From positions 1 to 58,283 of IMG/VR virus record IMGVR_UViG_3300024302_000012: a stretch of DNA of 58,283 nucleotides. One strand, given 5' to 3'. Position numbers and translations under genes: made by a program. How positions within the stretch are numbered: position 1 is the stretch's first letter; every line of letters begins with the position of its first letter. Below the pieces are notes generated by a model. It was not told where the DNA came from. It searched no databases and was given only the letters and a program-made list of their open reading frames with translations. Shown piece after piece: positions 30,888 through 58,283 of this stretch. The stretch is from a virus.

Positions 30888-31322
30888 ATGCCAGTTTTAT
30901 ATAACTATACAGGATCAGATTCTGAAACAGTATTAATTACTGAAGAAAACATTGGGCTTGACTATCCATTTGGATTGACTGGTGCACCGTTTGGAGCTAC
31001 TACAACTTCGCTTGATAGAATTAGAGCAAACATTCGAATACTATTAAGAACAAATGTGGGTGAGAGACCAATGAAGCCTACATTTGGCGTACGATTAAAA
31101 GAGTTTATATTTGAACAAGTTGATGATGAAGACGAACAAAGAATTAAAGACAATATTGCAACAGCTGTTGAGATATGAATACCAGAGGTAACTCTAGATT
31201 CTATAGCTCTTGATCAATCTGCAAGCGAAAAAGAGCTTCAAATACTAGGTGTTCAGATAAAATTTCACCTTAAAGATAATATAGATGTTACCGCAGAAGA
31301 GATTGTGGTATTAACATCATAG
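30888..31322 (+). CDS. gp25-like baseplate wedge protein, one in-frame TGA
   Basis: Read with TGA as Trp this is 144 residues, the usual size for gp25/GPW. SLDRIRANIRILLRTNVGERPMKP and FGVRLKEFIFE are typical. TGA at 31176 gives EIWIPEV, where the family normally has Trp before its Pro-Arg motif. Under the standard code the protein is cut to 96 residues and loses its conserved C-terminal strand. TAG at 31320-31322 is the stop. It forms part of the baseplate wedge, next to gp6. Confidence 0.9.
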
Positions 31323-31332
31323 GAGAATATTA

Positions 31333-33234
31333 ATGGCAACGCCAGTAAAGAAAAATGTAAATTATATTGGAAGAGATTTCTCTGGTTTACGGGAAAACAT
31401 TTATACATTCATTAAGTCGTACTTTGGGAACACATACAAAGACTTCACAGATTCATCTCCAGGTGAAATGCTTATGGAAATACCTGCATACGTTGGAGAT
31501 GTTCTATCGTTCTATCAAGATAGCATGTTTAATGAGCTATTTGATCCTAAGCAACGGAAGAATGTATTGGCACGAGCTAAGCTATTTGGATATAAAAGTA
31601 CAGCTGCCATAAGTTCTATTACAGATGAAGATGTGTTTATCGTTGTTCCTGCAACTGGATCGACTGGAGCAAAGACTCCTGATCTCAGATACTGTCCAGT
31701 AATTAGTGCAGGTCTGCAAATTTCAACAAAGAGTCCGGCCCACATATTTGAAACTCAAGAGGATATTAATTTTGCAATAATTGATACTGAGCTTGATAGC
31801 AACAATGTAGAGGTAGTTATATTTGCCGTTGATGGCTCTGACATTCCTACTCATTTTTTAATTAGAAAAACAGTTCGTGTATTGTCTGGCGAAACAAAAA
31901 CTATGACCCAGACTGTCACATCACCACAAAAATATTTAAAAATACAGCTACCTTCAAAAACAGTTTCTGAAGTTATCTCAATTACAGATTCAGAAGGTAA
32001 TAAATGGTATCAGGTCGACTCATTGGCACAGGATACAGTATTCGTTGAGCAACAAAATACATCAGCCAATGATCCAGAATTGAGTGCGTATAGCGGTTCA
32101 GTTCCATATTTATTGAAATTGAAAAAAGTTCCTAAGAGATTTGAAACAGAGGTTGATGAAAATAACCTCACATATGTTCTATTTGGATCTGGAGTTCTTA
32201 CGTCTAATGATGAAGAGATTATCCCAAATCCAAATAATGTTGGTACTCCATTTGCAAACGTTGATAATAAATATGACTATGCAATCGATCCTGAAAATTT
32301 CTTAAAGACGACTACATTCGGTGAAGCTCCAGCAAATACAGTTTTAACAATAAGCTATAGAGACGGCGGAGGTCTAGCTACGAATGTCCCGGCAAAAGCT
32401 ATTACAGAAGTTGGAAATGCTACATGAACATTTTCAGTAACCGAATCAACACTGGACAGTCTTGCTCTCTCAGATGTAAAAAATTCGATTAGAGCATCAA
32501 ACCCAGGAAAATCAACAGGTGGCAGAACCGAGGAAGACATCAATAGTATTGCATTTAATGCCAAGGCAAACCTCAATGCTCAGAAGAGATGTGTAATCAA
32601 AGAGGATTATATTGTAAGATCATATTTACTACCGGCCAAGTTTGGATCGATTGCAAAAGTATATGTGGAAAAGGATGACCTAACAAGATCTGTGGGATCG
32701 GATGATATTAATCCTGCACTAGGAATTGTTCCAAGCCATGCAAATCCACTGGCAATCAATTTATTTTCATTGAGTTATGATTCGAATAAGAATCTTCAAG
32801 CATGTTCATATGCTCTCAAAAAGAACTTGAAGACATATCTATCACAATACAGGCTTCTTACAGATACTGTTAATATTGTTGATGGGACTATTGTAAACTT
32901 TAAAGTCTTATTTGAGATCATCGTTGATCCTCATGAGAATAAGCGAGCCATTTTGATCAATTGTGTAGACGCACTAAAGACATTTTTTAACATTGACAAT
33001 TGAAGCTTCAATCAGCCAATCGTATACTCTAAAGTATATCAAGTGTTGAATGATGTAGCCGGTGTTCAATCGGTGCCAAATGTTGATATTATTAATGTTA
33101 GCGGAGGAACACATTCATCAAAATCAGTAGATTTTCCAGCAATGACACAAAAAGGCATTATATATCCGATTAGAGATGTAAGTATTTTTGAATTAAAATA
33201 CCCAAATCAAGATATCATCGGTAGTGCAAGCTAA
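31333..33234 (+). CDS. gp6-like baseplate wedge protein (baseplate J type), two in-frame TGA
   Basis: A 633-residue protein when TGA (32425 and 33001) is Trp. The N-terminus NYIGRDFSGLRENIYTFIKS, then DSSPGEMLMEIPAYVGDVLSF, matches T4 gp6-like wedge proteins in which two copies join neighbouring wedges. TGA sites read ATWTFSV and NWSFNQP. AGGAG precedes the start. The length is like T4 gp6 (about 660). Confidence 0.9.
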
Positions 33235-33248
33235 ACGGGAGAAAATTA

Positions 33249-34259
33249 ATGTATAAAAAATTCACAGCCAATAAAGACTCTTTTATTGACAAAAAGTTGG
33301 GCGAAAATAATTTCGGGAAGGATGAGCTACTTGAGGTAGGCAGGATTATTAGCAGTAGTGCTGTATATCCTAAGCGTTCTTTAATTTCATTTGACATTAG
33401 TGTGATTTCAGCATCTTTTGCTGCCGGATCAATTAACTCAGGAAGCAATTTCGAACTATTAGTACATTCAAATCAAGGTTCGACAATGTTACAAGATGCA
33501 TTCTATATTGATGCGTACATACTGTCATCCTCTTGACAAGAGGGAACTGGTTCTGTATCAGATAATAATGCATCAGGTTCTGTATCATGGATTTCATCAT
33601 CAACAGCAGCATGAGTGACAACAGGATCAGATTATTTGGCATCGCCCACGGCTTCACAATATTTTCCAACCTCATCAGGAGACTTAAGCCTAGATGTTAC
33701 AACAATTATTAGCCAATCAATCAATTCTGAATATGACAATTATGGATTTTTGATCAGGCTACGAGACGAATCTACGGTTCAGAATCAAGATCCAAAATAT
33801 TTCTATTCAAAGGATTCGTTCACAATATACGACCCAGTAATTTATGCCAAATGGAATGATGTAGCAACGACTGGCTCGGTAGCAGATTCATCGGCATCTG
33901 TTGAGTATGTAGTTACATTAAAAAATAAACAAGAAGTATATTCAATACAAGAGCAAGTATATTGCGAGCTTCATACAAGATTACAAGATCCAACACTGAC
34001 ATTTGATACAAGTGTAGGATCGCTATCATCAATTCCTTTGACAAATCTGGCTTATACAATTATAGACACTGCTACAAAAGAGACTGTAATTCCATTTAGT
34101 GCATACACAAGTTGCAGCTATGATAGTTCAAAAAATTATTTTAATATTGACATGGATGTATTACAGCCTAATCGAGCATATAGTTTAAAATTACAACATT
34201 CGCTTGCATCAAATGTTAAAAAATTCTACCATGTTCACTCATTTAGAACCACGGAGTAA
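33249..34259 (+). CDS. DNRLRE-like beta-sandwich tail protein, two in-frame TGA
   Basis: A 336-residue protein joining two frames across TGA at 33534 and 33612. The opening KDSFIDKKLGENNFGKDELL, then RSLISFDI, resembles DNRLRE-type surface domains. It is rich in Ser, Thr and Gly, as is usual for tail and fibre proteins. CGGGAG precedes the start. It probably sits on the baseplate or tail. The family call is tentative. Confidence 0.78.
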
Positions 34260-34261
34260 TT

Positions 34262-35581
34262 ATGAATAAAATCCTTATTAATAGATCGACTGTAAATACT
34301 CAGACAGTTAGAGCTCAGACTCAGGCCTTAGATAGTGAAGCGCTCAAAAAATCAATTATCAAAAAAGCCAAACTTGATATTAGTGAACTAGTATCAAAAG
34401 ATCCCATATTACCAAACAGTGGTACAGGTGGTAGAGCTCATGATGAAATTATAGCAGATCTATATGCCGAGTTTGAGGCAGATTTTGGCGAAATGTCAAA
34501 TGAAGAATTAGTAGACTTTTCTACACGAGTGAGATTAGAAATTGACACAATTGTAGAAAATGAAAGACTTGTTAAGAATAAGGGATTATTCATCGATACA
34601 GATCAGATATGTATGATCACAGGTAAGCAACCGTTTGCTGGAACTTCTTCTCCCCACAAGATCAGATTCCCAAACATATACAAAACCGTTGGCTCATATA
34701 ATTTAGATCAGAATATTTTTACACTCCACTGAATGCCAACGCTGAGACCAAATAGCACATTGAGCATTGTTAGGCATAAAGTTTTACATACTCCAGGGTA
34801 TATGGGATGAGATCTTGAATTGTTATCAAATATGAGATATAGATTTAATGCATGGATATGGGATAGAGACGATCAGAAAACTGAAATTATGTCTGTTACT
34901 TCTGATGCTAATCAACTTGTACAGCTAAATGAGTGAAATCATGTTACATTTGGATTTGACATAGGTGGCATTGTTATTCGCGTAGAAGACACTGTCAATA
35001 CTCAAGCTTATTCAAAGAGCATAGATCTATTCTATGGAATTAGATGAGATTTCTTAAGCGTGTGAGACTTTGATGCTCCACTGGGACCAACAGGATATAG
35101 CGAAGAAGGTCCTATCTTAGGAGATCTATATTGAGTCTATCCTCAGCTTATTTTTGGTGGAATTAACGTGAGCGATAATACTTCCGATATTGGTCGGTTG
35201 AGAAACTCATATACGACAGATGAAAGATCTATAGAGCCTCAACATCAAGTCATTGAACTAAATTCTGCACAAAGCCGATCAATTAAAAACGGATTAGATT
35301 CATATTACATTATAGCATTTAGAAGCTATATTGGTGTTCCATCAATAGAGGCTGCTGAAGATAGATTTGTTGACGACCTAAGTGAGAATAATTCATTAAG
35401 CATTGCAAGCGTACTAGATGTTCGCTTTGATAAAATACAAAATGGATCAATTAGAGATTATAGTGAAAGATCTAATCTAGTTGTTCTAACTGGTGACATG
35501 AAAATTAACATAGCTGCAGATCAACTAATCATTGCTGGCACGAAGAAGCCAAGTCTTGTTAGCATAGAAGGACCCTTTTAA
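34262..35581 (+). CDS. Late structural protein, six in-frame TGA
   Basis: A 439-residue protein once TGA at 34730, 34808, 34934, 35045, 35063 and 35132 are read as Trp. The TGA-rich part reads as a beta-type domain (RYRFNAWIWDRDDQK, then YGIRWDFLSVWDFD). TGG and TGA are used side by side. Its position in the baseplate block and its composition indicate a virion component; no family was recognised. Confidence 0.82.
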
Positions 35582-35583
35582 TT

Positions 35584-38500
35584 ATGATAAATCCAAACAC
35601 TGAAAATACATATGGAGTTGTTCCTGACGTAGAAGATGCTTCAACAGGAGGAACTGCAGAAGTATATATTACAGTATTTAAGCTAGATGGAACGTTTGTA
35701 TCTTCGAGAATCTTGCAGCCTGATGAATATATCTATTCTACTGGGGGTACTGGACTAGATATTAATCTAAATCTGCACATGTCTAGATATCTAAGCGTTG
35801 AGCTGCCTACTGATAACTATGATATTAAAATTTCATTTGAAAAAGAGATCAATAGTAATATTTTCATTAAAGACGTCTCACCATCAAAGACGGAAATGCG
35901 TGTCGGTCTATCGGTCGAGGAAGATACTCAGTGAGACTATTGGCTTAATTTTCCAGATAGTTTTTTAGCATCATTTGACAAGTTTGTCACTGCTAATGGC
36001 GAACACTTTAGAATCATCAATGTAACACCTGACTATTCTAAAGTTATTGAAATGCAAGGACCTATTGAGGAAAATATTTCTAATACTGAAGAATTAATTA
36101 GCTCTAAGCAGGCCCAAGTAAGTGGAGCGGCCAACATGCCTGCTGATATTGTTTTAGAATTTGTATCATCTATAGAAAATCTACAAACAAGCTTGGCACA
36201 GTATCAGGTAGATCTTAATAACATCATGCAATATGCTACGATGATTGTTAAATTAGAAAATCCTTATAAAGGACCGACCGAAGTTCCAATCAATAATTCT
36301 CACATCTATACAGAGCAATATGTTTCAGTATCATATCAAAATGTATATGTCTATTTTGAAGAACATGGACAGGGAGCAACAATTGAATTAACCGACAGAT
36401 CTACTAGAAATGATAGTACAGGAAATACAAATTGGTTCAACTATGAAGAGCTAGTGCTCAATGACAGTGGTTCGTTTGAACAAAACATATCATCATCAAA
36501 AGTATCTGGTGTTAAAAACCTAAACATCGACTATGAGGCTTTCCAAAATCATACATACTTTGGTCTGGCACAAGATAAGTTCGTCAATGCCTACACAAAG
36601 ATTAGAGATATTGAGGCATACAATGAAATCATCCAGACATTTCCTACATCTTCTGATGCACTTGTGACAAGTCAAAGCTATTCGGATAAAATCACTGAAA
36701 TCAAGAATGATTTTACTCAGTATGAAAGATATATGTATGAAAAATCAGGTAGCTATGCTTGACCAAAATTTTCATCCGGTACTTCATCTATAAACTATTC
36801 ATACTCATCATCACAGGTTCAAACATGGTACGGAATACAAGAGCTATCTGGATCTGTATTTGATAAAAACAACAAGTATTCGTTGATTAAAAATATTCCA
36901 GAAGTTATTGCTCTAGAAGATTCGGAGAGATACTTAAGATCTCTATTAGGATCATGAGGGGATTTCTTTGATTATATTAAATCATACATAGAGCAGTTCC
37001 AATACTTGTTCACATTTGACTATGACAAGATTAATTCAGTTCCAGATGAAATTCTACATCTATACTCTTCAGTATTTAATATAGAATTATTCTCTGGATA
37101 TGACGATGTAAGAGCTTCATCATATCTTCATGGTTCTAATCAAGCATCTGGATCGGCAGCTTTACGAGATGTCACACGAGAAAAATGGATTCGCTTATTC
37201 TCTTCAATGCCATACTTGAATAAAATTCGTGGAACAAGAAGATCAATTGATGCCATTTTAAACATCTATGGAATTCCTAGATCAATACTCACAATTAGAG
37301 AATTTGGAGGAAGCAAAACTTCTGGATCAGATTATGTTGATGAAGATGTCAACACTTATGCATTAAATTTCTGGGGTGGTGAAAGCATTGAGGTTCAAAA
37401 TGCAAACTATAGCCAGCTATCTGGATCTGACTTTACAATTGAAATGAGATATGCAACAACATCCTCTGGCGACCTACCGCTATTTGGAAATACTGGATTT
37501 AATGTAACACTTGAAGACAATGGAGATGCTGATGACTATGGATCTATAGTTTGTAACATCTCTGGATCGCCTACAATTTGAAATGCTAGTGGATCAGATG
37601 CTGTGCCATACTTCAATGGTGATTGGTTCAATATTATTCTTAGAAGATCTGGCTCTGAATTAACTCTTAAGACAAAATACTTTAAAGAGGATCAAATGTT
37701 CTACGATCTTTCTGGCTCGGCAACACTTAGTGCCGTATCTCAATCTTATTTGGATGCCGGTGTTTATGCTGGTAATGTTTTATTCTTTGGTGCTACCGGA
37801 TCTGTTGGAGCATACTCTGGTGCAATGCAAGAGGTAAGATTGTGGAGCTCATCATTAAGCGAACCTGCATTAACTCAGCATGCTTATGATTTTAGATCTG
37901 TAGCAATGATAAATCCTTTTGACATTGATGACAATCTTGTAGCACACTACAAACTAAATGATAATGTGACCGGATCGACAGCCAATGACTATTCATATCC
38001 ACCAGTTATTGATGTGACACTAAATGGATTTACTGGAAATCAATATAGCAATTTCACAAAATCTACAAAAACTAATTTGAACTATTTTATGACTAGCAAA
38101 TATTCGTCAAATCAAATCAATATTGGGCACACATCTGAATCTCAGACTGAAAATACAAATGTGATTGATATTATTTTCTCACCAGTCAAGGCAATCAATG
38201 AAGATATCATAAGCGATTTTGCCATGTATGACTTTAACGATGCCATTGGAGATCCATCTGATATGTATAATGAAAAATATCTAGATCTAGAATCGTGACG
38301 TGAGTTTTATTTTAAGAAGCTACCTAATAATTATGATTTCTATGCTTATATGAGATTTATTAGAAATTTTGATCAAAGCATTATGAAAATTGTAGAGACG
38401 GTAGTTCCAATGAGAGCAAAATTGTGAAGTGGAATTTTAATAGAGCAGCCTATTCTAGAAAGAACAAAATATAGATGGGAAAAGAGTTCTGTTGCAACAA

Positions 38501-38847
38501 ATCATAATTCAAGTTCATTTGATGTCACGACTGTCACAATATTATCTGAATCAATTGCAAACAATACATCACAGAGCATTGATATTACAACAACATTCCC
38601 AATTACGGGATCTGACAGATCTATGATGTCTGCCTCGGTAATTTATGAGGTAACTGGATCGCAACTAGGATCAAATAGTTTCTATTCATCGGCAGATAGC
38701 ACCGTATCTAGCTCTCAATATTTAACTGTATTTGAATTATTGTCAAATGCAACATATAAAGGCACTCAGAACACAGATGCCACCAATTATGATGGAGCTG
38801 TGGTACAAGTTAGCCAAAGTTCGGGTGCAATCATTAGAGTCAAATAA
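35584..38847 (+). CDS. Large baseplate protein with P2 gpI-like and LamG-like regions, six in-frame TGA
   Basis: A 1087-residue protein assembled across TGA at 35932, 36760, 36955, 37579, 38296 and 38425. The middle has a segment MPYLNKIRGTRRSIDAILNI that resembles P2 gpI-like tail proteins. Residues about 590-790 look like a concanavalin/LamG jelly roll (DWFNIILRRSGSELTL, EVRLWSSSL, LVAHYKLNDN). It may link baseplate and fibre and contact a surface. Under the standard code only fragments would be made. Confidence 0.8.
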
Positions 38848-38862
38848 TTTTTGTAAAAAATA

Positions 38863-38905: not shown

Positions 38906-39586
38906 ATGGGTATTTTAGATTCAAGCACAACAACAATCGATTGTGTATTAACCAAAAAGGGAAGAGAATTGCTTTCAAAGGGCGAGTCGGAATTTAAGAT
39001 TACGAAGTTTGCCGTAAGCGATGAGGGTGTTGATTATCGAATGTATAATACAAATCATCCTTCTGGCTCAACTTCTTATGGGACTGAAATTACTTCAATG
39101 CCCGTCTTAGAGGCTCCCGTTGATGAAACACTTTCTATGAAATGAAAATTAGTAACGTTTCCAAAAGGTACTTCAAAAATGCCTATTGTTGCCGTTACAC
39201 CAACTGTATTATCACTAAACTTCAATCAAAAGTCTGTTGTTACTCCATCAACAACATCTTATATTGCTGGTTTTGATAATAGCACACTAGGCTACACTTG
39301 CATCCTGTCAAATTCAGATTTGGCTACATTAGAGGTTCAAGAAGTAGCAGCAGATCAAACTTCAATTGGAACATCGCCATCTTGGATGGATGATGCATCA
39401 TTGCAGAAATCTACAATCCGTGTTGGTAAAACATTTAGAGTGATTGCTAAAGATGTGACAGCATTGCAGGTTGCAAATAGAGTTGGCACGATTACAGTAA
39501 TTGCAAATGAGACAGGTGGACAAGCAGAGCTTAATGTAACAATTGTTCCTCCAACTGGTTCAATTTATACAACACCTGGCGTATAG
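38906..39586 (+). CDS. Late structural protein, one in-frame TGA
   Basis: A 226-residue protein. The opening STTTIDCVLTKKGRELLSKG, then FKITKFAVSDEGVDYRMY, recalls structural proteins of T4-like marine phages. TGA at 39143 gives MKWKLVTFPKG, an aromatic position in such proteins. The second half is beta-rich (ATLEVQEVAADQTS). The start at 38906 is set by AAGGAG; an ATG at 38732 in this frame lies in the previous gene. Confidence 0.82.
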
Positions 39587-41013: not shown

Positions 41014-41778
41014 ATGTATAAAGCAATCGAGAAATCAGATAGCTCGGTAAAACGATTTGATACATTTTCAAATCACACTCTTACTAACGCTTCAACTGGC
41101 GTAAATTTTCTTACCGGAGTATCTGGTTCCTCTGTTGTATCTGAGTCTGCAAATTGAAATTGAACGAATGGACTATTCTACAATCTCAATTATGGACAAT
41201 GAGGACAATACGTATCACTTAAAGCAGCCGAATGACAAGAGAGAAATCTTCAAAGCAATTGTAGAGTCATAGCCATCCCATCATCATATATTGGTAGAGA
41301 GATCAAGCCCGGATCATTAATGATCGACGATACCCAGGGCGTTCTTAATACTGTCTATGTTGACAATGGTAGTGGATCGCTCTATGTTCAAGCATCAAGC
41401 TCTGCTGCTATTGTGGGCAACGTATTCTATAAGCAAGGTATTGCTGTATTGACAGATACTGGATCTTTTGCTCAAGCAGTTGGAACCGATACCACAACAA
41501 TCACATTTAAATCGTCACACTATATTTATGAGCACAACTATTTGTGCAAAATGAATAGTGGAGATTTCAATTCCCCAACCAATCCCACAGCAGTTTATGG
41601 TTCATCATCAACAGCTACATATGCCTCAAATGAATTGCGTAATGCAGACGTGGCATATATAACTACCATAGGACTATATGATGCTCATAACAGATTACTA
41701 GCCGTTGGCAAGATGGCAAAACCACTCTTCAATGATCCTGAGCAGAATGTTGCAATTCTTCTTCGGTTCGATATGTAG
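41014..41778 (+). CDS. Late structural protein, four in-frame TGA
   Basis: A 254-residue protein only when TGA at 41155, 41161, 41200 and 41233 are Trp, giving NWNWTNG, GQWGQY and AEWQERN. Under the standard code the start at 41014 would give only 47 residues. The C-terminus LYDAHNRLLAVGKMAKP echoes the protein at 39598. Likely a virion or tail component. Confidence 0.8.
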
Positions 41779-41787
41779 GAAATGATC

Positions 41788-42576
41788 ATGAAGCTAAAAG
41801 ACATTGTAGCCGAACTAACTGCAGAAAAGTTGGCAGCTTATAAGTTGTATGAAGGCTTAATCTATACGCATGATATTAATCGATCAATAAATATGATTAA
41901 GAGATTTCACAAAAAGATTACTCACGTTGGTAATAGAGGTGAACGTATTGTTGTTGAATTTGATATTCTCCCCGGTGTTCATAATACTAAAACAAATATG
42001 AAAATGATCAAAAAGCTTGTAGTATTTATTAACAACTTAGGCTGGTTTGTTTCAAAAATGAATATCTATAATGCAGAGCAAACTAGACATATGGAAAACA
42101 AGGGCTATAGCGAATATTGATTAGACTTTTTGTTAGCCGATAAAAAGGGCGAGTTTAAAGAAATTGGATATGTACCTGAAATTGTTGAATTTATACTTGA
42201 AGCCAAATTTGATCTTGAAGTTCCTACTGATGATATTTTATATCACACACTTCCAACATCAAAAGTGGAAAAGGTGATGAAAATCGGGCTTGTTCCAAAG
42301 CATCATTCTAAATTGTCATATCATCCAGACCGAGTTTATTTAGCAATAAATCCACAAGCAGTTGATGATATTCAAACTATGTTTAAATCGTGAATAAAAG
42401 ATGTAGAATATTCTACTCTTAAAATAGATAGGTCAAAAATTGGAGGACTGAAAACATTTGTAGATCCAAATTTTGATGAAGGGGTATACACTCATCAGAA
42501 CATCCCACCCAAAGCTATCACAGACATTACAAAGAAAAAGAAGGACCACGTTCACAAAGTTACCGACTGGATGTAA
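41788..42576 (+). CDS. ADP-ribosyltransferase-like/Tpt1-like protein, two in-frame TGA
   Basis: A 262-residue protein across TGA at 42118 and 42391. The C-terminal half has LYHTLPTSKVEKVMKIGL, then DRVYLA and DEGVYTHQNIPP, the pattern of NAD-using ART-fold proteins (His in YHT, Tyr in VYL). The N-terminal half is a charged helical domain. The start at 41788 is preferred to 41782 because of AGGA spacing. It could modify host proteins or RNA, or be packaged like T4 Alt. Fold call tentative. Confidence 0.62.
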
Positions 42577-42591: not shown

Positions 42592-43140
42592 ATGAAACTT
42601 GCTAAACTATTGTATGAAATCAAAATCTATCATGGCGACAATCATGGAACTCGACAGTTAAAGATTAAAATGATGATGCAAAAAAGTGCTAATAATCAAG
42701 AAGGAGTTGGTATATACTTTTCAGATCTTATTGACACGGCTGAAAAGTATGGAAAAGATGTCATTTGAGTTGACATTAATAAGAACAACTTCGTAGAAAG
42801 CAGAGATCCTGCTAGGTCGCACATTTCCAAATCAAAATTCGTTGCACTATTAAAAGAGATGATAAAAATAGATAAAGAAGAGATGTTTTATTTTTTATCA
42901 GACTATGCATATATAGAAGATCCTGAAGACATCGATGAATATGTTCTATTAGAGGCCGCTCCTGTACTACTAAATAATGAGATTCGTAATTTACAAGTTG
43001 AATTAGCCACGGTTATAGGTGTCGAATCGTTTGTAAAATTATGAAATAAAATAATTAGAATTGATGGAACTTACCATAGTAATGGTCCCGACATTTGATA
43101 TGCCATTATAAATCCAAAATACAAAGTAAACAAAAAATAA
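42592..43140 (+). CDS. ADP-ribosyltransferase-like protein, three in-frame TGA
   Basis: A 182-residue protein across TGA at 42766, 43042 and 43096. KIYHGDNHG (residues 10-18) and GVGIYFSDLIDTAEKYG (about 40-56) match the His and Tyr motifs of phage ART-like enzymes; DVIWVDINKNNF follows, with Trp from TGA. It directly follows a second ART-like gene. No strong ribosome site is seen. Target unknown. Confidence 0.62.
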
Positions 43141-43720: not shown

Positions 43721-43750
43721 ATTAATATGAAAAAACGAGGAAGAGATAGA

Positions 43751-45384: not shown

Positions 45385-46146
45385 ATGAAGGAATATCACT
45401 ACACTTATATAATAAACAACATGTCTAATAAGAAGTATTATATTGGAGTTAGATCTAGCAATGATCTGCCACATAGAGATATTGGATATAGATACTTTAG
45501 TTCGAGCCACGATAAGCAATTTATGATCGAGCAAAAAGAAAACCCTGAAAATTTTTGATATTCGGTTTTAGAAATTTTCAGGACAAGGAAGCAGGCAAAT
45601 AGAGCTGAAACAAATCTTCATGAAAAGCTGGATGTTCAAAATGATAAGATGTGTTATAATATTTCTAATGCATCTGGAGACTGAGTCATGAATGATAAAG
45701 CAAAGAAAAATATTAGCATAGCACTTACCGGTCGGAAGTTATCAATTGAGCATCGAAATAATATAAGTTTGGGAAGTCTAAATCACACAGTGACAGAGCA
45801 AACTAAAAAAAAGATTAGTAATAAGAACAAAGGTCATGCCGTAACCGATGCTACAAAATTAAAAATTAGTAAATCATCAATTGGAAGAACCTTGTCAAAA
45901 GAGACAAGACGGAAAATCAGTAAGTCTCGGATAGGAATGAAGCACTCGGAAGACACAAAAGCAAAGCTTAGTACAAGTGCACAAAATCGCAAACCACCTA
46001 CAGCAAATACAAAAAGTAAGATTGGTAAATCATTAGCTGGAATAAAACAAGAGTTAGCGATATGCCCTCATTGTGGTAAAGAGGGCGGAGTTAATGCAAT
46101 GAAAAGATATCACTTTAATAACTGTAAGCATAAGGAAGTTAAGTAG
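45385..46146 (+). CDS. GIY-YIG homing endonuclease with NUMOD3 repeats, two in-frame TGA
   Basis: A 253-residue protein across TGA at 45556 and 45682. YTYIINNMSNKKYYIGVR (residues 6-23) is the GIY-YIG core, with catalytic Arg and Glu further on. The middle has repeated ISKSxxG-type NUMOD3 DNA-binding motifs, and the end has CPHCGKEGG, a zinc motif. TGA gives NFWYSVLEI and ASGDWVMND. It is a free-standing mobile element next to the primase gene. Confidence 0.87.
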
Positions 46147-46386
46147 ATGAAAATTGATAAAAACGACATGTGGTCTGTCAAGGAGCATGGATTGATCGTG
46201 GGTTTCTGTTACTATGTTGAAATAGAGGAGCTTGAAAAGAAATTACAGAAATTTAAGCCCGAATTATACAACACTCATTATAAGCCTTTTCGTAAGAAAC
46301 TCAAGCAGAAAGGTGTAACACTATTCTTCGATAAACAGCATCAGTATGATGTTGAAAAGGAAATCCGCAAGTTCAAAAATGGTTAA
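46147..46386 (+). CDS. Small hypothetical protein
   Basis: A 79-residue basic protein (begins MKIDKNDMWSVKEHG). It abuts the homing endonuclease stop and overlaps the primase start by eight bases. No family was recognised. Confidence 0.78.
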   Translation: MKIDKNDMWSVKEHGLIVGFCYYVEIEELEKKLQKFKPELYNTHYKPFRKKLKQKGVTLFFDKQHQYDVEKEIRKFKNG

Positions 46387-47326
46387 CAATCCTGAAGCAC
46401 TCAAACGGATACTTACATTAACATATGGAGAAAGCGATGGCATATCGAAAAACGGTGACCTCGCTTTCTTCTGTCCATTTTGTAACCATCACAAGAAGAA
46501 GCTCAATGTAAATATCAACACAGGCTTCTGGCATTGCTGGGTTTGTCAAAATGGATCCAAGTCAATACTATCACTACTCAAGAAAACTGGCAAATCAGGA
46601 ATCATTCAGGAAGTTGTAAAGCTTCTTGATAAGCGTTCTCAAAGCTTTGTCAAATATGACGATGGTAAATCATCAGAGCAACAGATATTTCTACCCAAGG
46701 AATACAAATCCCTATCAAAACATTCACGATCACCAGAATTTAGACAAGCATGGCATTATCTGAAGTCAAGAAATTTTACTGAAACTCTTGTCAATCGATA
46801 CAATATTGGTTATTGCACTGAAGGTAAATATAGGAATCGCTTGATCATCCCATCTTACAGTGAGTCTGGTGTCGTTAATTATTTCGTTGCCCGAACATAT
46901 TATCTGGATGAAGAAATTAAGAAATATGACAATCCAGTAGCACCTAAGGACATTGTTCCATTTGAATTATATACATCATGGGCATTTCCAGTGATCCTCG
47001 TTGAAGGTGTATTCGATGCAATGAAGATAGACAGGAACGCAATACCAATCTTGGGTAATTCCATTGGTGATGCAATAATTGAAAAATTACTTAATGAGGG
47101 AGTAAGGCAGGTATATTTAGCTTTAGATGCTGATGCTATGAGGTTTGTTTATCGAGAGATTATGAAGCTTATTGAGGCCGGCATACAGGTCCAGATAGTA
47201 GAACTACCTTTGGACAAAGACCCAGGTGAGATGGAGCAGCATGAATTTCTTAAATTAATTGATTCAGCTGTAGCAACGACTGACCTGAAAACAAAAATGA
47301 GATTTAAAATGATGAGCAGAGGTTAG
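46379..47326 (+). CDS. DnaG-type DNA primase (T4 gp61-like)
   Basis: A 315-residue protein. FFCPFCNHHKKKLNVN, then HCWVC (residues about 25-53), form the zinc-binding domain that reads template start sites. VILVEGVFDAMKI and VYLALDADAM are the TOPRIM motifs, with the catalytic Glu and the Asp pair. It makes RNA primers for lagging-strand synthesis. ATG at 46379 overlaps the upstream gene, and its stop is one base from the nuclease gene. Confidence 0.9.
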   Translation: MVNNPEALKRILTLTYGESDGISKNGDLAFFCPFCNHHKKKLNVNINTGFWHCWVCQNGSKSILSLLKKTGKSGIIQEVVKLLDKRSQSFVKYDDGKSSEQQIFLPKEYKSLSKHSRSPEFRQAWHYLKSRNFTETLVNRYNIGYCTEGKYRNRLIIPSYSESGVVNYFVARTYYLDEEIKKYDNPVAPKDIVPFELYTSWAFPVILVEGVFDAMKIDRNAIPILGNSIGDAIIEKLLNEGVRQVYLALDADAMRFVYREIMKLIEAGIQVQIVELPLDKDPGEMEQHEFLKLIDSAVATTDLKTKMRFKMMSRG

Positions 47327-47327
47327 A

Positions 47328-50300
47328 ATGAAATCACAAAGACAATGGAAAAGGGTAGCTCATATATCCGATATTCATATTAGAACTATTGCTAGACAAG
47401 GCGAATATAAAGCTGTATTTGAAAAGCTTTTTCTATCGTTGAGGAACGAAGCAGTTGATGCCGTTATCATTACCGGTGATACCGTCCATGGGAAGACTCA
47501 AATGTCACCAGAGCTTATAGAGATGCTATATTTCTTGTTTGAAAATCTTAATAAATTAGGCATCAAAATCATCATAATCCCGGGCAATCATGACGCATCC
47601 TTATCAAATCTATCAAGAACTGATGCACTTTCACCAGTTCTGATGCTATCCGAGTTTAAAAACATAGATTATTTGCGCGATACTGGAGTGTATAACTATG
47701 GAGATGTAGACATATATCACTATTCTGTATTCCAAGATAAATCTACATTCGATACAACAATACAAAATCCTGACAACACTAATATTGCATTATACCATGG
47801 GCCGATTAATGGATCTCAAAATGAATTTCAATTCACATTTGAATCTAATATGACAGCCGGATTTTTTAGACCATTTGATTTTACAATGCTAGGTGATATT
47901 CACATGAGGCAATGTCTTCAGGAAGAGAATCCCATCTGGTATGCTGGAAGTCTTATTCAGCAGAATTATGGTGAAGAGGTTGAGAAGGGATATCTAATTT
48001 GGGATCTCACAGACAAATCTGTAGAATTCATAAAGATTGAAAACGATAATGCCTTTCATACTCTATATGCTAAGAATAATATTCTGGAAGATAAGATCTT
48101 TCTTGCATCCAGTCCAAGGGTGAGACTATATTTCGATAAGCTTTCAATGTCAAGGCTTGAGGAAATCAAATCAGAAGTGGTGCAAAAATATGGTGCAATA
48201 GAGATTATTCCCCATGAAGTGGAGGGGCTTCTCGAAACAGATTTGAAAGATGAATTTGAAGATTCAGATTTCTATGATATTGCTGTGCAGAATAAGTTGA
48301 TTAAAGAATACCTGCGAACTCGATATCCATCATTAACAAAAAAAGAGACTGAAAAGATTATTGAAGTCAATTCTGATATTGAGCATATTGTTAAAGAGGA
48401 TCCTACATATTCAGATAAGAAATCTATGTCAAGATGGACTCTTGGACATATGCAATTTGATAACTTCTTCACATTTGGAGAAGACAATAGAATTAATTTC
48501 AAAGACCTGACTGGGATCACTGGAATCCTTGGTGCAAATGCTCAAGGAAAATCATCCATCTTAGAAACAATTACATTTGCCATATTTGGCACAACCTCAA
48601 AGCAGTTAAGTCTTGCTCAGTTGGTTAATAACCAAAAAGATAAGGCAAAGGTCTATATTACTTTGGAATCGGACGGTCAACTGTACGAAGTTGAACGCAA
48701 ACTAAAAGTCCATGAGAAGGCAGGGAAGAGGGGAGCGTCTCAGACGCTTACATTCAACAGAATTGATAAGGATCAGGGTGCTCTGCTAGAAGAATTGAAC
48801 GGTGACGATAAGAATGCGACTGAAAAGAACATTAGGGAGATATTCGGAACGTCTGACGACTTCTTAAATACAGCAATGATAGCACAGAACAACTGGGCAT
48901 CCTTCATTAAGAGCAAAGATACCAATCGGAAGAATATTTTGATGAGCTTCCTTGACCTTACAGCATTTGATAGGAAACACAAGGTTGCCAACAAGATTAA
49001 TAACGACAATATAACTGTATTGAAGGAGCTAAATAAGGACGATCTATCCTCTCAACTGGCTGGGACTAATAAGGAAATTGTTAAAGCCACAACAGGAATT
49101 AGTAATCGTAGGGGAGATGGAGCGGCATATAAAGTAATTGCTAGAGATATACAGAAGGAAAAAGATGCTCTACAGGCTCAGGTCCGTGCTGTTAAAGGGA
49201 AAGAGATTGATGTTCCCAATCAGGAAAATACAATTGAAGCCCACAAGACATCTATTAAAAAACTAGGTGTAGAAGCACAAGATCTTGATAAGCTACGTCG
49301 GACCAAACGAAGAGAATCTCTTGATATGGTAGATGAAATTTTCAATCTTGCAATCGAAAGCGAAACTGCTGCTGAGAAATTAGCAGAGGTGACCAAGACA
49401 AATGATGCTGATCGAACAAATGAATCATTGACCTGGGGCACTAAGGATATGCAATTCCGTCGGCTTGCTTCAACTCGACAAGAATCAATCATGGAATTTA
49501 CATCAATCATTATGGGACTTGAGTCTAAAATAATGCTCAAAGAGCAAGAGATTAAAGTAAATAAGAAAAATCAAGAATTGATTACTGATGATTTTGTTGA
49601 ACATGACGTTTGTTCTAAATGCATACTTGTAAAATTTGCCCTCGATGCTAGAGGTGGTGAAGAGAAATTAAACAATGAATTAGTAGCACTAAACAATGAG
49701 ATTATCAGCGAGACAGCTTTACGTGAGAAGGAACGATCAGCATTGGCACTAATAGAAGAAGATCATCAAAAAGCAAATGACATATTTGATGGAAGAATTG
49801 AGGAGCTTGATAAAGAAATAGAATCTGTAAGAGTCTTATCTGAATCAACTAGAAGATTGGTTGAGGAAAATCAATCCAATCAAGACACTCTCAGTGCTCA
49901 GGCAGAATTGCTCGAATCTAAGGTACAAACAAAGATTGCCGAGGCAAGAAGTATAGGTCAGCAGATCAAAGCCATACAGGCTGAAATTGCTCTATATAAA
50001 GAAAATCAAAAGACCATAGAACAGAATAAATCATTGATGTCATTGATTGAAACAAAGCAAAACAAAATTGATGAAGCCAATAAGTTCTATGAAATTGAAC
50101 ATGAGAAAGAAATGGAATTCACAAACAACTTGGCCATGTATAAAGAACGAAGAGACAATATCTCTGAAAAAATGGATCAAGTCAAGGAGAAGAGGATCAT
50201 TACAGATCGATATTCATATTACTTGGCAGCCGTCCATCGTAATGGAATCCCATCTGATATTATTAGTAATGCCCTTCATAAGGTCAATTTTGAAATATCA

Positions 50301-50693
50301 AGATTGCTAGATTCAGTGGTGAATTTCCAATTGAATATTGTAGATGACAATGATAAGATTGGTGTCTATCTGAAATATGTGGATGGAGAGTTAATTCCAG
50401 TGGAAGCAGCCTCCGGTATGGAATCTATTATGAGTGAGATTGCTATTCGTAATGCTCTGCTCAAGATATCAATGAAACCCAAACCAACACTAATTGCTAT
50501 TGATGAAGGATTCTCTGCATTGGATTCTGAAACACAAGCATCTCTACACAGCATGTTTACTGTATTAAGATCGGCATTCAGAAATACATTTATCATCAGT
50601 CATATCGAACAACTGAAAGACTATATGGATAATAATATTGATCTTAGGAAAGAAAATAACGAAACACATATAGGAAACATCAGCACACTATAA
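47328..50693 (+). CDS. Single-chain Mre11-Rad50-type nuclease (gp47-gp46 fusion)
   Basis: A 1121-residue protein combining both subunits of the recombination nuclease. Residues 1-360 are a Mre11/SbcD phosphoesterase (HISDIHIR, VIITGDTVHG, IIPGNHDAS, MLGDIHMR). The rest is Rad50/SbcC: Walker A GANAQGKSS (about 402), long coiled coils, a zinc hook CSKC (about 762), a signature-like ASGMESIM and Walker B LIAIDEGFSALD. T4 makes these as separate gp47 and gp46. It resects DNA ends for recombination-dependent replication. No TGA interrupts it and no stop lies between the halves. Confidence 0.93.
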   Translation: MKSQRQWKRVAHISDIHIRTIARQGEYKAVFEKLFLSLRNEAVDAVIITGDTVHGKTQMSPELIEMLYFLFENLNKLGIKIIIIPGNHDASLSNLSRTDALSPVLMLSEFKNIDYLRDTGVYNYGDVDIYHYSVFQDKSTFDTTIQNPDNTNIALYHGPINGSQNEFQFTFESNMTAGFFRPFDFTMLGDIHMRQCLQEENPIWYAGSLIQQNYGEEVEKGYLIWDLTDKSVEFIKIENDNAFHTLYAKNNILEDKIFLASSPRVRLYFDKLSMSRLEEIKSEVVQKYGAIEIIPHEVEGLLETDLKDEFEDSDFYDIAVQNKLIKEYLRTRYPSLTKKETEKIIEVNSDIEHIVKEDPTYSDKKSMSRWTLGHMQFDNFFTFGEDNRINFKDLTGITGILGANAQGKSSILETITFAIFGTTSKQLSLAQLVNNQKDKAKVYITLESDGQLYEVERKLKVHEKAGKRGASQTLTFNRIDKDQGALLEELNGDDKNATEKNIREIFGTSDDFLNTAMIAQNNWASFIKSKDTNRKNILMSFLDLTAFDRKHKVANKINNDNITVLKELNKDDLSSQLAGTNKEIVKATTGISNRRGDGAAYKVIARDIQKEKDALQAQVRAVKGKEIDVPNQENTIEAHKTSIKKLGVEAQDLDKLRRTKRRESLDMVDEIFNLAIESETAAEKLAEVTKTNDADRTNESLTWGTKDMQFRRLASTRQESIMEFTSIIMGLESKIMLKEQEIKVNKKNQELITDDFVEHDVCSKCILVKFALDARGGEEKLNNELVALNNEIISETALREKERSALALIEEDHQKANDIFDGRIEELDKEIESVRVLSESTRRLVEENQSNQDTLSAQAELLESKVQTKIAEARSIGQQIKAIQAEIALYKENQKTIEQNKSLMSLIETKQNKIDEANKFYEIEHEKEMEFTNNLAMYKERRDNISEKMDQVKEKRIITDRYSYYLAAVHRNGIPSDIISNALHKVNFEISRLLDSVVNFQLNIVDDNDKIGVYLKYVDGELIPVEAASGMESIMSEIAIRNALLKISMKPKPTLIAIDEGFSALDSETQASLHSMFTVLRSAFRNTFIISHIEQLKDYMDNNIDLRKENNETHIGNISTL

Positions 50694-50712
50694 TAAACTT
50701 ATTTCCTTGGAT

Positions 50713-50721: not shown

Positions 50722-50751
50722 ATAATATGAGTATAATCTAAGGAGATGATA

Positions 50752-53700
50752 GTGGGTACCACATTAACTGCATTAAACAAAGCTGATCTAAAACTAAACT
50801 TTGAAAAATCCCCCATTGATAAGATTCTTGATGAAAATCCATTTTCTAAATATTTTAGAATTTTTGGCGTCAAGGAAGAGTCATATGGTTTAGGGCGACA
50901 TTCGTTCATACTTTATGGATCAGAAGGATTAGTTAGAAATTCAGACATACAAATTGAAATTCTTGATGTCAATGGACAACCAATTGTTGTTCGTGCCGTA
51001 GATGCTGCGTCTAATAGTCCAGGGTGGAGAGTTTGATTTACAATCACAGAATTGCATACCGCCGGACCTGCTACAATATCAGTTGTTGGATCAGCAGATT
51101 TAAGAGAGTTTGACATCGAATCAGGTCTTCGAGGATCTGAATACAATGTAATGTGAAACCGAATCATTGCAGTTAATCCTACCCTACCAAATAGATCTGA
51201 CATTGTATTCCAAGAAGCACCAGATTTTACAGCCGTAGAAACAATCCAGACAGACGCAGATAATCCCTTAAAGAATAGAAGCTTTGCACAAATAGCATTT
51301 AATGATCTAGAGACATACTCTGGATTTGTTGAAGCCATTGATGTATTCTTACTTTCATCAGGCTCAGTGTCAGTTGACGCAGATGAGACGAAATGACAAA
51401 GTCTCGGAAAAGTTCCAGTGACAGGATCAAGCGTTGGCGTCAATCCTAATTCATTTAGTTTTAAAATTGCAGTTCCTACAGAGCGTGAAGATGACATTCT
51501 CACATTTAAGACGAGATTCTTAAATCCATTTGGCGAGTATGCTAAAGTTAATGAGTCTGGATCTGTCTATGAGGTAACATCTTCAGAAACAAATTTTGCT
51601 GGTGCCAATACATATGCACTTTCAGCTTCTATGGTCGGAGAAGGTCTTATTACTGGATCACTATACGCATCTAATGCTTTAGGTTCTGGAATTGAGATCG
51701 CTGGTAAAACATCAGGTTATATGCGTTCAGTTGGATATGAGGGATTCTTATCAGCCTCAATGAGCCTTGCTTCTCCCGGATTCATGATGTATTCAGGTGC
51801 TGTTTTACCAGCGTCAGGTGATTCATATGACGGAGTTGGTCTCGAACTTGTTTCAGACAATGGGTACTTAAGATTTAGTACAAATCCAAGCAGATTTGAA
51901 GTTGTGGCTGACTCATTCTTTGTTGGAGATTATGATTCTCAATATATTTCTGGATCAAGTGGTACGATTGTAATTAGCTCATCTGGATTCTATTTGGATC
52001 CAAATGGTAATGTGTTTATCTCGGGTTCAATCTCTGCCTCTGCTGGATATATTGGTGGATGACAAATTGTTACTGGAGCACTATATAATTTAACGGCATC
52101 TGACTATGTTGGGATGTCAACCGCTGGTGATACAAGATTTTTTGCTGGTGCATCATCATTAGCAAATTCAGGCTCTGGTGTTTTCAATGTGAAATCAACT
52201 GGAGAGATAACAGGATCTGATGTACTATTTACAGGCGGAAAAATTGCATCATTTAATCTAACCAACGATGCATTCTATACTTCAAACTTTTTCATTAGTA
52301 GTTCTGCAACAGGCAATGACTATTTTATAAGCTCGTCTAATTTTAATATAAAAGCAAGTGGAGACATCACTGGATCATCTGCACTATTTGATGGCAGCAT
52401 TTATGTAACTGGGACAGGTACAATTGGTGGATTTTCACTATTGGCTGACGAAATTAAATCTTCAAATGACTATTTACGATTAAAGTCTAGTGGTCAGATT
52501 ACTGGTTCAAATGTTCAATTCACAGGTGGAGATATCGGTGGTTGGACAATTGATTCTGGAAGTTTGTACAATGATTCAGAAACGACTAATATATATTTAA
52601 GCAGTGAAAATACTAATTGAGCTAACATTAGTGATAATACTGTATATCTTGGAAGAATTCAAGGGAATTATAATGCTCTTGCTATTAAAAAGGATGCTAC
52701 TCATTATATTCTTATGGGTCAAAATGATGCTGGTTCTGGATTTATTCAAGGATATAGTGGTAGTGCAATATTTGATTTACGAACAGATACTTCGTCTTCT
52801 ATTGCTGGTTGGACATTTGATGATTCATCTTTAGGTGGAACAAATCTTACAATGTATTCAAGTGGACTTATTGAGACAAATGATTTTGTAAGTGGATTAA
52901 AGGGATGGAGAATTGATCAGACAGGACTTGCAGAATTTGATAATGCTGTGATTAGAGGATCTCTATCAACCGTTTCATTCGATAAGCAAACTATCAATGC
53001 TGTTGGTGGACAATTATGAGTAGCTAACTCAACTGTAGTTAGTGGAAGTGCTGTTGGAATTTCTGATGTTACTATGAGTGTTGCAAACGCCAGTGGATTT
53101 GAGCCAACAGAATATATGATCGTCAAGAAAGTATCTGAAACTGGATTTAGTGAAGAGGTTGTAACAATAGTTAGTGCGTCGGTTGACAATCTAACAACTG
53201 GTGCAGGTCGACTTATGGTAACAAGAGGAACCAGTGGATCGGCGGCTGCATATGAAGAGGGACAGGTTCTTGTTTCAACAGGAAAATTAAACACGGGATA
53301 CATCAAGCTAAATGCAAGTCCGGCTGATACTTCAACTCCATATATAGACATTATTGAGCGAACTGGCTCTGCTTATGCTGATACAGATTTAAAAGCTAGA
53401 CTTGGAGATCTAAGTGGATTAGCAGTAGGGCTTGTGGGAACCGATCCTGGGTATGGATTATATTCACAAAATGTATTTTTAACTGGAACAATCAATGCTC
53501 CTCTAGGACATATTGGAGGATGGCAAATTGGTAGTGCTTTTATAAGCTCATCTGACAATTCTGTTCTTTTAAATTCATCAACTCCCAACATTGCATTAGG
53601 AACTAATTCTCATTTAATGAATATGACAACAGGCACTGGTGTCTACATGGATGGAGCCGGTAATTTTAGAGCTGGAATGCCTGAGGGATATAGAATATCA

Positions 53701-56700
53701 TTTGATGGTAGCAATTTAATATTAAGTTCATCAGACTTTTTCCTTGGTGGAGATGGACAATACATAAGTGGATCAGCTGGAACTTTAGAAATGAGTTCGA
53801 GCAAGTTTCATCTAGACACAACTGGAAATATTACAGGATCATCGGTCTATTTCACAGGAGGAGAAATAGCTGGATGGACATTTAATACTGGATCATTCTC
53901 AAAGAATGGTGTTAGACTAGAAGCTGAAACTGATGGTGGATTATATATTTCAGATGATTACAATAATGACTTAATTGCCGTAGCATCAAAATCAATGTAT
54001 ATGCTTGGATCAGCTACAGACGAAATGGTTAACGATTCATTCGAATATGATGTTGGAGGTCTATGAACAGGATCTGATGGTTATCATCTTGGAAATGCAT
54101 CCTCTCCATTGAGCGTTGTTAGTTGGTCGTTGGCAACTGTAGGTCCCGTATCTCACTCAATGACAAGACGACTTGGTGCTGGATATGAACTATATAATGC
54201 TGCTGTTGTGGGTGATAATACATTTGATATTATCTACCCAGGAACGCTTGCTCCAATTGCATCAACAAGCAGAAGTTTAGCCCAGACATCTGCATCATAT
54301 TTAACATCAAATCAATATGAACTATCTCAGATCGTTAGTGCTAGTTCTCAAGCTGCTCAAACATGAGTTGAGGGAAATGTTGTTTCACTGGCGTTCGTGG
54401 CAAAAATGTCACACTCTCTTGCTGGAGCAGGATATGATAGAGGATTTGAGCAACAAAAATATCGAGTTGAATATTGGTCTGGAAGCGCTTGGAATAAACT
54501 TATTCCAACAGGGACTAGCGAGTGGTCTAAATACAATATGGCCGTCAAATATACTTCAATCAAGGCTTCGGCAAAACTACCAGCTTCAACATCTAAGTTG
54601 CGGTTAAGGCTGTCCGGATCAATCAATCCAGACGTGACTCAAACATCTGAAGAATACAAATTGGATGAATGGTTTGCAAGCATTAGAAGCCTATTGAGCT
54701 TTGGATCTCTAACACCTGAGACTCCAATTTTATTACAAGATGGTACATCGACCGAAACTATCAAGGCATTAAGAGTTAAAGCCGCCGTTCTTGCATGAGA
54801 TAGTATTGCGAATGAAAATATTGTTGCGTACGTAGTTACAAAGACTAATCATCATGCGACATCAAGCTTATATATTAATGGTTCAGATATCATCACATCT
54901 GATACTCAGTTATTTGAAACAGTCGATAGTGGAAGTATGCTTGCATCGAGCCTGACAACTAGTGATAAACTTATTGACAAAAATGGAGATACAGTTACAA
55001 TTAGTACAATTAATGAGGTCCGTGGAGATTATCCTTTATTTAACCTCGTATTGGCACGAAGAGCAGAAGATGGCGAAATTGATGATAGCCTGTATTATTA
55101 TGCAGGAGCTACAACTCCCGTAAGATCAAATCACACCGGTTCGGCATCGGCTAGATATGAAGAGGAGCCATTAGAAGTAGAAACAACTTCATCAGATGAT
55201 TCTGCAAAATATCCCTATACAGAAATTTCATTTGACAACTTCAGATTAGTTCAAGATACTCCAAGAGTTGAATTATCAAAAGATGGATTTTTACTTTATC
55301 AGTCTGAAGTATCATATATTCAGATGTCACCAGACAATTTTATTATCCGTACTCCAAGTGATGGAGCTGCAGGTATTGGTAATGCTGTTTCATCAAATAT
55401 GTCAACTACAAACACAGCTGTACTTGGACAATTGGCTGCTCCATCTATTCAACCTTATGAAGCAGAGCCAACTGACATTGGCCAAACACCTTTTGCTGGA
55501 GGTATCAATGAATATTCAATGGGAAATCACCGACATGATTTAAACTTTGATGTACTGAATAATGTGGCTCAATCAGGATCGTTTGGAACTATTGATATTA
55601 CAAATCTTTCAGTAGGAAGCTTAAGCTTCACTGGTGGTGGTTCATTTGTTCTTACTGGATCACTTGCTGTAAGTTCTAGTAATGATTCATACTTTGTTGG
55701 TGGTGGTGGAATTGGTATTGGAACTACAACTTCAACATCAGATTTACATGTAAATGCAATAAGCAATGTTGGTTTTACATTACAACATGCATCAAGACCA
55801 ACAATAGCATTGACAGACGGTACAAATTATGCGTATATAGGATTAGATAGTGGTGGACAAATTATTACTGGTGCTGAAGATAATGATTTAGCAATCCGTT
55901 CACCTGATAAAATAAGGTTTGCAACGGGTGCATCGCTTTGAATGACAATTGATAATGTTGGTAGTGTAGGAATTGGAACAGCTACTCCTGGCAATCCTTT
56001 AGAAGTTTATCATGCAACAACAAATACAGTGACAAATTTTAAATCAGGAGATACTTTAACACAGATTAGTATTGAAGATACGAGTGATATGGCTTATTTT
56101 GGTACACAAAATAATTTAGCCTATTTTGGTTTAAGTTCTGGTGCTTCTATAAACAATGTAATTGTAAATACTTCTGGATATGTTGGAATTGGAACTGCAA
56201 ATCCATCAACGAATCTTCATGTAGAAGGTGACGCAATATTCACAGGAACAGTAACTGCACAAGAATTTCATGCCGAATTTGTATCAAGCTCAATTATCTA
56301 TGAAAGTGGTTCAACTAAGTTTGGTAATTCAAATGATGACATTCACGCATTTACAGGTTCAATGGGATTGACAGTTACATCCAGTGCAGCTTCAAGTATA
56401 TTTAATATCGTTAATGATAATTCTGAATATTTACGACTTGCATCAATTCGTTCAGCGGCCGGAACTGGACCAAATGACCAATTAATTCAATTCAGTGAAA
56501 ATTTAAGATTTACATATGCACCAAATGAACCTACACCAATGGTATTTTTCTCTGGTTCTGGTCATGTGGGAATTGGAACAACAGGCCCAAGTTCATTATT
56601 GCACTTATATGGTACTGGTCAACCTAAACTAACTATTCAACAATCAGACGATGTTAGTGGTGGAGCTACAATTGCTCTTACATCTTATGACGGTACACTT

Positions 56701-58283
56701 ACAATGGCACACTATAATGATGCCTATGCACCAGTCGCTACTTATGCTGGCAAATCAGTTTTACAAAGTAGTGATAATTTAGTATTATCAGCTTTCAATT
56801 CAAATCAATCAATAGAATTTTATGCTGGAAATAGAACAACTCCTAAGATGTATATTGCGGGTTCGACTGGTTATGTTGGTATAGGAACAACAAATCCAGG
56901 TGCAATGTTACATGTATATGGAACTGATGGTAAAATTAGAATTCAAGATACGAATGGAGCATCTTCATTAGATTTCTTCAATGTCGGAACTGGAGCTGGA
57001 AATGATGGCGTCGCATCTATTAATTTTAATAATACAAGTCAAACAGGACTTGCAAATATTCATGCTCGTACAGGAACAAGTGGAGCTACATTAGAGTTAG
57101 CATTTGACACTGGTATTGGTGCAGAAGCCATGAGAATTGATGAGGATGGAAAAGTTGGTATCGGAACTACGAATCCAACAACACAATTACATGTAGTTGG
57201 TAGCGGAGATTTAATATTAGATGATACTGGTGGAGGAGATGCATATATTGGATTATTTGCAACTGGTAGTGCAGTAGGGTATATTTTTGCTGATACTTCA
57301 CGAGACCAATTAATATTAAGACACGATAGCGTTGCTGATCAACTGGTTTTAGATAATGCTGGTAATGTTGGAATTGGAACAACTAACCCATCTTATGAAT
57401 TTGATCTGTATAAAGATCAAGATAGTCAGACATCACTTAGAGTTAATAATCCAAATGCGGGGACGAGTGCAGTATCTGAGATTATATTAACTTCCGATGA
57501 TGGACCTTCATTTTTTGTTAATCATGCAATTGCACGAACTGTAACACGATATAGTTCAATTGCAGTTGGTGGATATTCAGAAATTTTAGCTCACAATAAT
57601 ACAAATGGTTTATTGATTGGAACTGGAACAGCAAACACAAATATCATCTTTGGAAATAATTCTTTAGCTAGAATGACTATTGAACCAGATGGGAATGTTG
57701 GAATTGGAACAACAAATCCTACAGCACTATTAACATTACAATATCCAGGTGAAACTGGCGAATATTTTAGAGGTCATGGTACAGGTTCATTATCTGAAGC
57801 TAGATATTTAAGTATTGCAGCTTCAACTACTACATTCGCAGGTGATACACACACATTTGATGCAGTATCTAGTGGTGGTGAGATTGCATTTGCAACAACT
57901 GGTAATGAGAGAGTGAGAATAAATAGTTCAGGATATGTTGGAATAGGAACTGACACTCCATCTACTAAACTTGACGTATCTGGTTCAATAACAATATCAG
58001 AAACTACTGGACAATTACTACTTCCAGTATCAAATGATGCAGTTACTCCTACACTAGCTTTCGGTGCTGGTAATACTGGCTTTTATGCATCATCTGCAAA
58101 TGTTTTAAATGTAAGTATTAATGGAAGCGATGATTTTGATTTTTCAGCAAATAAATTTTCTGCTGATGATTCATCAGGTCCTGCAATATTAAATGAAGCA
58201 GCTTCAAGTACAAATCCAACTTTAACTCCCCATAAATTTGATTTAGATACAGGAATTGGTTTAGCTGGTGCTGATACAGGTTC
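50752..58283 (+). CDS. Giant tail-fibre protein, ten in-frame TGA, runs off the window
   Basis: At least 2510 residues, still open at the right edge. The start is GTG at 50752, six bases after AAGGAG; ATG at 50746 overlaps that site. TGA occurs at 51034, 51154, 51394, 52060, 52618, 53017, 54064, 54364, 54796 and 55939. The first half repeats GSSALF/GGW-type beta modules, as in trimeric fibres. From about 55.97 kb VGIGTxxPxxxLHV units recur at least eight times (near 56.18, 56.57, 56.88, 57.16, 57.37, 57.70 and 57.94 kb). It probably recognises the host surface; a C-terminal self-cleaving chaperone may lie beyond the window. Confidence 0.88.

Follow-up and report, generated by a model that had tools for sequence, protein, structure and literature searches.

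We found that an uncultured phage very probably uses a stage-restricted genetic code, in which UGA is read as tryptophan in the late structural genes. The window analyzed here is the whole of IMG/VR record IMGVR_UViG_3300024302_000012, 58,283 bases from an uncultured bacterial virus. Judged from its sequence, TGA is a sense codon in the late genes and the residue it specifies is Trp. Stage-restricted recoding of TGA to Trp is already known from other viruses, and this phage is a further solid example.

Source of the sequence and extent of the genome read

Near-identical contigs (99.95-100%) were present in several other assemblies. One of these, G001 (IMGVR_UViG_3300024257_000005; 105,677 bases), extends 66 kb upstream of the window, such that position x of the window is position x+65945 of G001. 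Another, G006 (18,891 bases), contributed 5.5 kb more, including the capsid gene, and was the only match to the sequence pattern at the start of G001. The pattern at the end of the window had no match among the contigs that we searched for closing the genome. Together, the window and the overlapping contigs gave about 129 kb, roughly 90% of the genome. The distance from the primase or SbcCD gene to the scaffold gene is ~21 kb in Flavobacterium phage vB_FspM_immuto (immuto) and ~28 kb in Microcystis phage Mel-JY01; we saw 7.6 kb past SbcCD. Comparison with these two phages suggests that some 10-20 kb of the genome lies beyond the ~129 kb read.

The phage shares gene order and 25-50% protein identity with immuto and Mel-JY01 (baseplate, tail, capsid, and replication genes). 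From these similarities, the window belongs to a large T4-like myovirus that is related to Immutovirus; at this level of identity we do not claim membership in the genus. A second late block with TGA-bearing genes lies upstream (G001 268-12326; head-tail adaptor, sheath, baseplate hub, and others), and replication, nucleotide-metabolism, and RNA-repair genes lie between the two late blocks.

The start of the tRNA cluster differed between contigs. Window positions 1-612 and G001 65946-66557 were completely unlike, in contigs that are otherwise 99.99% identical, which may be strain variation or misassembly. In contig L049, the sheath gene has an apparent insertion, which resembled a chimeric contig end and was not taken as real.

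In-frame TGA codons in the late genes

Twelve genes on the + strand between 30888 and 58281 contained exactly 40 in-frame TGA codons and no internal TAA or TAG. A preliminary description of the window had noted about 40 such codons, and no internal TAA or TAG, in eleven frames; the codon count and the lack of other stops were correct, but there are 12 genes rather than eleven.

The first two genes encode baseplate wedge proteins. The gp25-like gene (30888..31322; PHROG 43/261) has one TGA, at 31176 (Tyr, Asn, Phe, or Trp in homologues), and the gp6-like gene (31333..33234; PHROG 219; 28 relatives) has TGA at 32425 (Ile, Leu, or Val in homologues) and 33001 (Trp in 26 of 27). A gene that is syntenic in the relatives (33249..34259) has TGA at 33534 (Trp in 18 of 18) and at the variable site 33612 (Gly/Ser). 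Six TGA codons each were found in a gene to which no family was assigned (34262..35581; 34730, 34808, 34934, 35045, 35063, and 35132) and in a 1087-aa gene {35584..38847; 35932, 36760 (Trp in 8 of 13), 36955 (Ile or Met), 37579, 38296, and 38425}. Three further late genes contain one {38906..39586; 39143 (Tyr in 7 of 8 homologues)}, four (41014..41778; 41155, 41161, 41200, and 41233), and two (41782..42576; 42118 and 42391). A weakly ART-PolyVal-like gene (42592..43140; match below the Pfam cut-off) has three (42766, 43042, and 43096), the gene for a RuvC-like Holliday junction resolvase (43727..44269; PHROG 827/159) has one (43793), and a gene for a GIY-YIG/NUMOD3 homing endonuclease (45385..46146) has two (45556 and 45682) and no TGG. 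The long tail fibre frame (50746..58281), still open at the end of the window, has ten (51034, 51154, 51394, 52060, 52618, 53017, 54064, 54364, 54796, and 55939). The interval from 30888 is not uniform; there was no TGA in the genes at 39598-40728, 43196-43525, and 44281-44850, or in the GroES gene (44905-45225).

The in-frame TGA codons are not a matter of chance. In the coding frame of all the TGA-bearing late genes, both blocks taken together, TGA, TAA, and TAG occurred in the ratio 56:0:0, compared to 138:263:231 and 533:349:196 in the two shifted frames. When TGA was treated as sense, the mean length of called genes rose from 194 to 295 aa in the late part, and from 164 to 166 aa in the early part. 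Standard annotation of this record cuts short most of the tail and baseplate genes. Counting 'embedded' stops in other phages from composition alone gave a noisy result, which we used only as support. The base following TGA (+4) was G in 25 cases, A in 19, C in 8, and T in 8, a context in which we saw no obvious readthrough signal.

UGA is the leakiest bacterial stop and ATG or GTG codons occur downstream in some of the pieces, but it is extremely unlikely that these TGAs are real stops that split the late genes into short genes or mark decayed pseudogenes: the homologues are single proteins that span the TGA sites, with Trp at the site, which already refutes the idea for such genes; the 56 TGAs occurred without an accompanying TAA, TAG, or frameshift; and a comparison of strains from several assemblies for TGA/TGG swaps found zero changes at TGA codons, in strains that are near-identical.

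TGA aligns with tryptophan in related phages

We compared all genes to loci of related phages by tblastn, with TGA masked as X. Log-likelihoods were summed over the 26 TGA sites for which two or more homologues were available, giving 124.7 for Trp, 35.7 for Tyr, 20.8 for Phe, and negative values for the rest. The preliminary description had read TGA as Trp in the late genes and had named alignment with homologues as a check; in this alignment Trp was the best residue overall, and the difference between early and late genes (P=1e-23, below) also upholds that reading. The same procedure assigned the control codons TGG to Trp, TAT to Tyr, CTT to Leu, and GGA to Gly. Trp scored best at 12 of the 26 TGA sites, compared to 55 of 110 of the phage's own TGG codons. 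Several TGA sites aligned with Ile, Leu, or Gly, and TGG sites had such matches at an equal rate. The strongest Trp sites were 33001, 33534, G001 2343 (6 of 6), G001 6103 in the sheath gene (8 of 14), and 36760; some of the loci are near-duplicates, so these homologue counts overstate independence. Although 39143 aligned with Tyr and 33612 with Gly/Ser, there is hardly any chance that TGA specifies a residue other than Trp, for example Tyr or the Gly of code 25 (Gracilibacteria and Absconditabacteria), given the summed scores for Trp and Tyr and a score for Gly below that of the fifth-placed residue, itself -42.

The relatives carry TGG at the sites where this phage has TGA, and TGA was found once in 95,597 of their aligned residues (63 loci). 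Thus, among the phages sampled, the recoding is limited to the present lineage.

Early and late genes differ in their use of TGA

We assigned genes to early and late classes by position and gene function; the TGA-bearing genes are presumed to be late on the basis of their functions. Late genes, not including homing endonucleases, had 56 TGA and 101 TGG codons. In contrast, early genes together with primase and SbcCD had 10 TGA and 365 TGG (10:355 for early genes alone), an odds ratio of 20 (Fisher P=1e-23). TGA made up 3% of the Trp codons in early genes and 37% in late genes. The late share is about half of that predicted from the other A/G-ending codon pairs. Those pairs were used alike in the two classes (63-84% A-ending), so base composition does not explain the contrast in TGA.

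The genes for DNA primase (46346-47326) and a fused SbcD-SbcC (47328-50693) provide an internal control. They lie on the + strand within the late block (46346..50693), and none of their 10 Trp codons is TGA (10 TGG), indicating that the use of TGA tracks gene class. The early-type genes (RNA repair, nucleotidyltransferase, methyltransferase, and others; 9183..30640, + strand) use TGG and practically no TGA. At least three of the 10 early and replication TGAs are near gene ends, and seven are well inside early genes. Among 121 early genes, no more than two (21857 and 24401) used TGA as the stop, and both have a TAA within four codons of it. The relatives end 6-23% of their genes in TGA; this avoidance is a weaker point than the others because the value for immuto, 6%, is not far off.

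It is improbable that code 4 (UGA as Trp) is the host's own code and that the phage merely shares it. Such a host would account for the missing suppressor tRNA (see below), and Mycoplasma or Spiroplasma are the hosts of 22 of the 27 cultured phages for which table 4 is predicted (PMC11210395). However, TGA should then be allowed everywhere, and it was not: early genes had only 3% TGA, despite 63-84% A-ending codons in the other pairs, compared to 37% in late genes. In addition, the relatives infect Flavobacterium and Microcystis, and the anticodon of the phage tRNA-Trp is CCA.

The most likely account is that UGA acts as a stop codon in the host and during early infection, so that it is avoided in early and replication genes, both internally and as their stop. 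Later in infection, UGA would come to be read as Trp, and the late structural genes and homing endonucleases use it in place of UGG. With this presumed timing, the switch would delay the late proteins until after translation had changed.

Homing endonuclease genes and genes for capsid, tube, and sheath

Three genes of the homing endonuclease type had TGA at all seven of their Trp codons (P=0.001 compared to late genes, post hoc), a pattern unlike that of any other gene class in the phage. One is the GIY-YIG/NUMOD3 gene. The second, a homing-endonuclease-like gene without a Pfam match, is in the tRNA cluster (3272..3949, + strand) and has TGA at 3677 (Trp in 3 of 3), 3689, and 3788, and no TGG. 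The third (L048:15719-16024, - strand) adjoins the capsid gene on G006. The preliminary description had placed the in-frame TGA codons in the late interval of the window. Its use in late genes is confirmed, but TGA is also found outside that interval, in 3272-3949 (three codons) and in the upstream block of G001.

In contrast, the genes for capsid, tube, and sheath (L048:16223-17794, - strand; L034:4417-7229) were nearly TGG only. TGA was at 1 of their 23 Trp codons (TGG at 22), compared to 55 of 134 in the remaining late genes (P=3e-4, post hoc). The capsid gene had zero TGA, as did the 5.5-kb capsid stretch as a whole without its homing gene (0 of 24 Trp codons). This avoidance could reflect slow or leaky decoding of UGA, or the history of that stretch.

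tRNA genes and candidate decoders of UGA

All tRNA genes that we found are in one early cluster of 24 (385..8911, + strand), which is covered and has no UCA anticodon. No UCA tRNA was found in the about 129 kb by standard ARAGORN or by a scan that looked directly for anticodon arms with UCA, and long-intron ARAGORN gave only noise. The release factor (PF00472) and Trp-tRNA synthetase (PF00579) families were absent from G000 and G001. Separately, a tRNA-like element at 5044-5127 of the window has good acceptor and T arms and an odd middle; alone, it was not called by ARAGORN.

Three decoders could be envisaged: a UCA tRNA within the remaining 10-20 kb of the genome, the phage's tRNA-Trp(CCA) as a near-cognate reader together with weakened RF2, or the host tRNA-Trp together with weakened RF2. 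Host RF2 must be overcome under any model of decoding.

A conventional UCA suppressor tRNA, encoded between the fibre and capsid genes in the gap that was not sequenced, may exist, although we lean somewhat against it. The gap leaves room for one, going by the distances in immuto and Mel-JY01 given above. On the other hand, every tRNA gene found was in the covered early cluster, and of 73 phages predicted to use table 4, only 11 were reported to carry a Sup-TCA tRNA, many with a code-4 host in common (PMC11210395).

It is also possible, but rather doubtful, that the switch to Trp occurs without a UCA tRNA, through the phage's own tRNA-Trp(CCA), whose body changes (C9 and G11-C24) would make it a near-cognate reader that competes against host RF2. 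This gene (3935..4007, + strand) encodes the only Trp tRNA that we saw, with a 5-bp anticodon stem. Its positions were numbered by hand against E. coli tRNA-Trp. The phage tRNA shares CCA, C9, and a Watson-Crick 11-24 pair with UGA-reading variants of E. coli tRNA-Trp(CCA), in which the A9C and G24A changes increase reading of UGA (PMC13092985). Unlike in the G24A variant, the 11-24 pair is G-C and not U-A. The UGA-reading tRNA-Trp(CCA) of Blastocrithidia has a 4-bp anticodon stem (PMC13092985), a mechanism ruled out here by the 5-bp stem.

Within this tRNA pattern C9 was uncommon: it was found in 17 viral stretches including this phage, compared to A9 in at least 120, and in 42 stretches from genome contigs. 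The same type of D-arm with C9 also occurred in further phage contigs and in the genomes of bacteria from several groups. Three phage contigs with C9 (G009, G010, and G011) keep the standard code; in them, 13-28% of genes end at TGA in the usual way, and code 4 brings no gain. We therefore do not take C9 by itself as evidence that UGA is read. By analogy, the phage tRNA-Trp(CCA) is a candidate UGA reader, with a weak link to C9. If near-cognate decoding does occur, it would be slow or leaky and would account for the avoidance of TGA in the capsid, tube, and sheath genes. If the closed genome proves to have no UCA tRNA, the phage would be a natural test of whether changes in the tRNA body or control of release factor alone can recode UGA.

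Comparison to other recoded phages

TGA-to-Trp recoding in late genes of phages was already established, as the preliminary description had said (PMC11210395; PMC10746230). PMC10746230, citing Borges et al. 2022, describes recoding concentrated in late genes, and UCA tRNA, RF1, and TrpRS in some of the phages. As in those phages (PMC10746230, PMC11210395), TGA here is Trp, clusters in genes of the structural and lysis type, is practically absent early, and is almost unused as a stop. Unlike in those phages, the examined part of the genome yielded no UCA tRNA, RF1, or TrpRS, homing endonuclease genes use TGA only, the capsid gene uses none, and the phage is from a T4-like lineage in which the relatives have the standard code. 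Immuto and Mel-JY01 differ from it in using that code, with TGG at the recoded sites. This phage is a well-supported case of lineage-specific, stage-restricted TGA-to-Trp recoding in the T4-like group, and because the relatives, two of which are cultured, have kept the standard code, the recoding can be traced gene by gene.

Other genes and sequences

We noted several other features. A tmRNA (window 25173-25530; Rfam 120.8 bits) has the tag GTNYAIAA with a TAA end and was present in all near-identical contigs that cover the region. The phage has a GroEL gene (L037:2948-4582; 544 aa, E 3e-173), and the GroES gene is far off in the late block (window 44905-45225). The SbcD-like and SbcC-like parts at 47328-50693 are fused in one 1121-aa protein, apparently as in Mel-JY01. 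A non-coding region (window 8920-9130) that precedes a 714-aa gene at 9183 contains recurring motifs like TTGATTCT and CTTCCTTCTAA.
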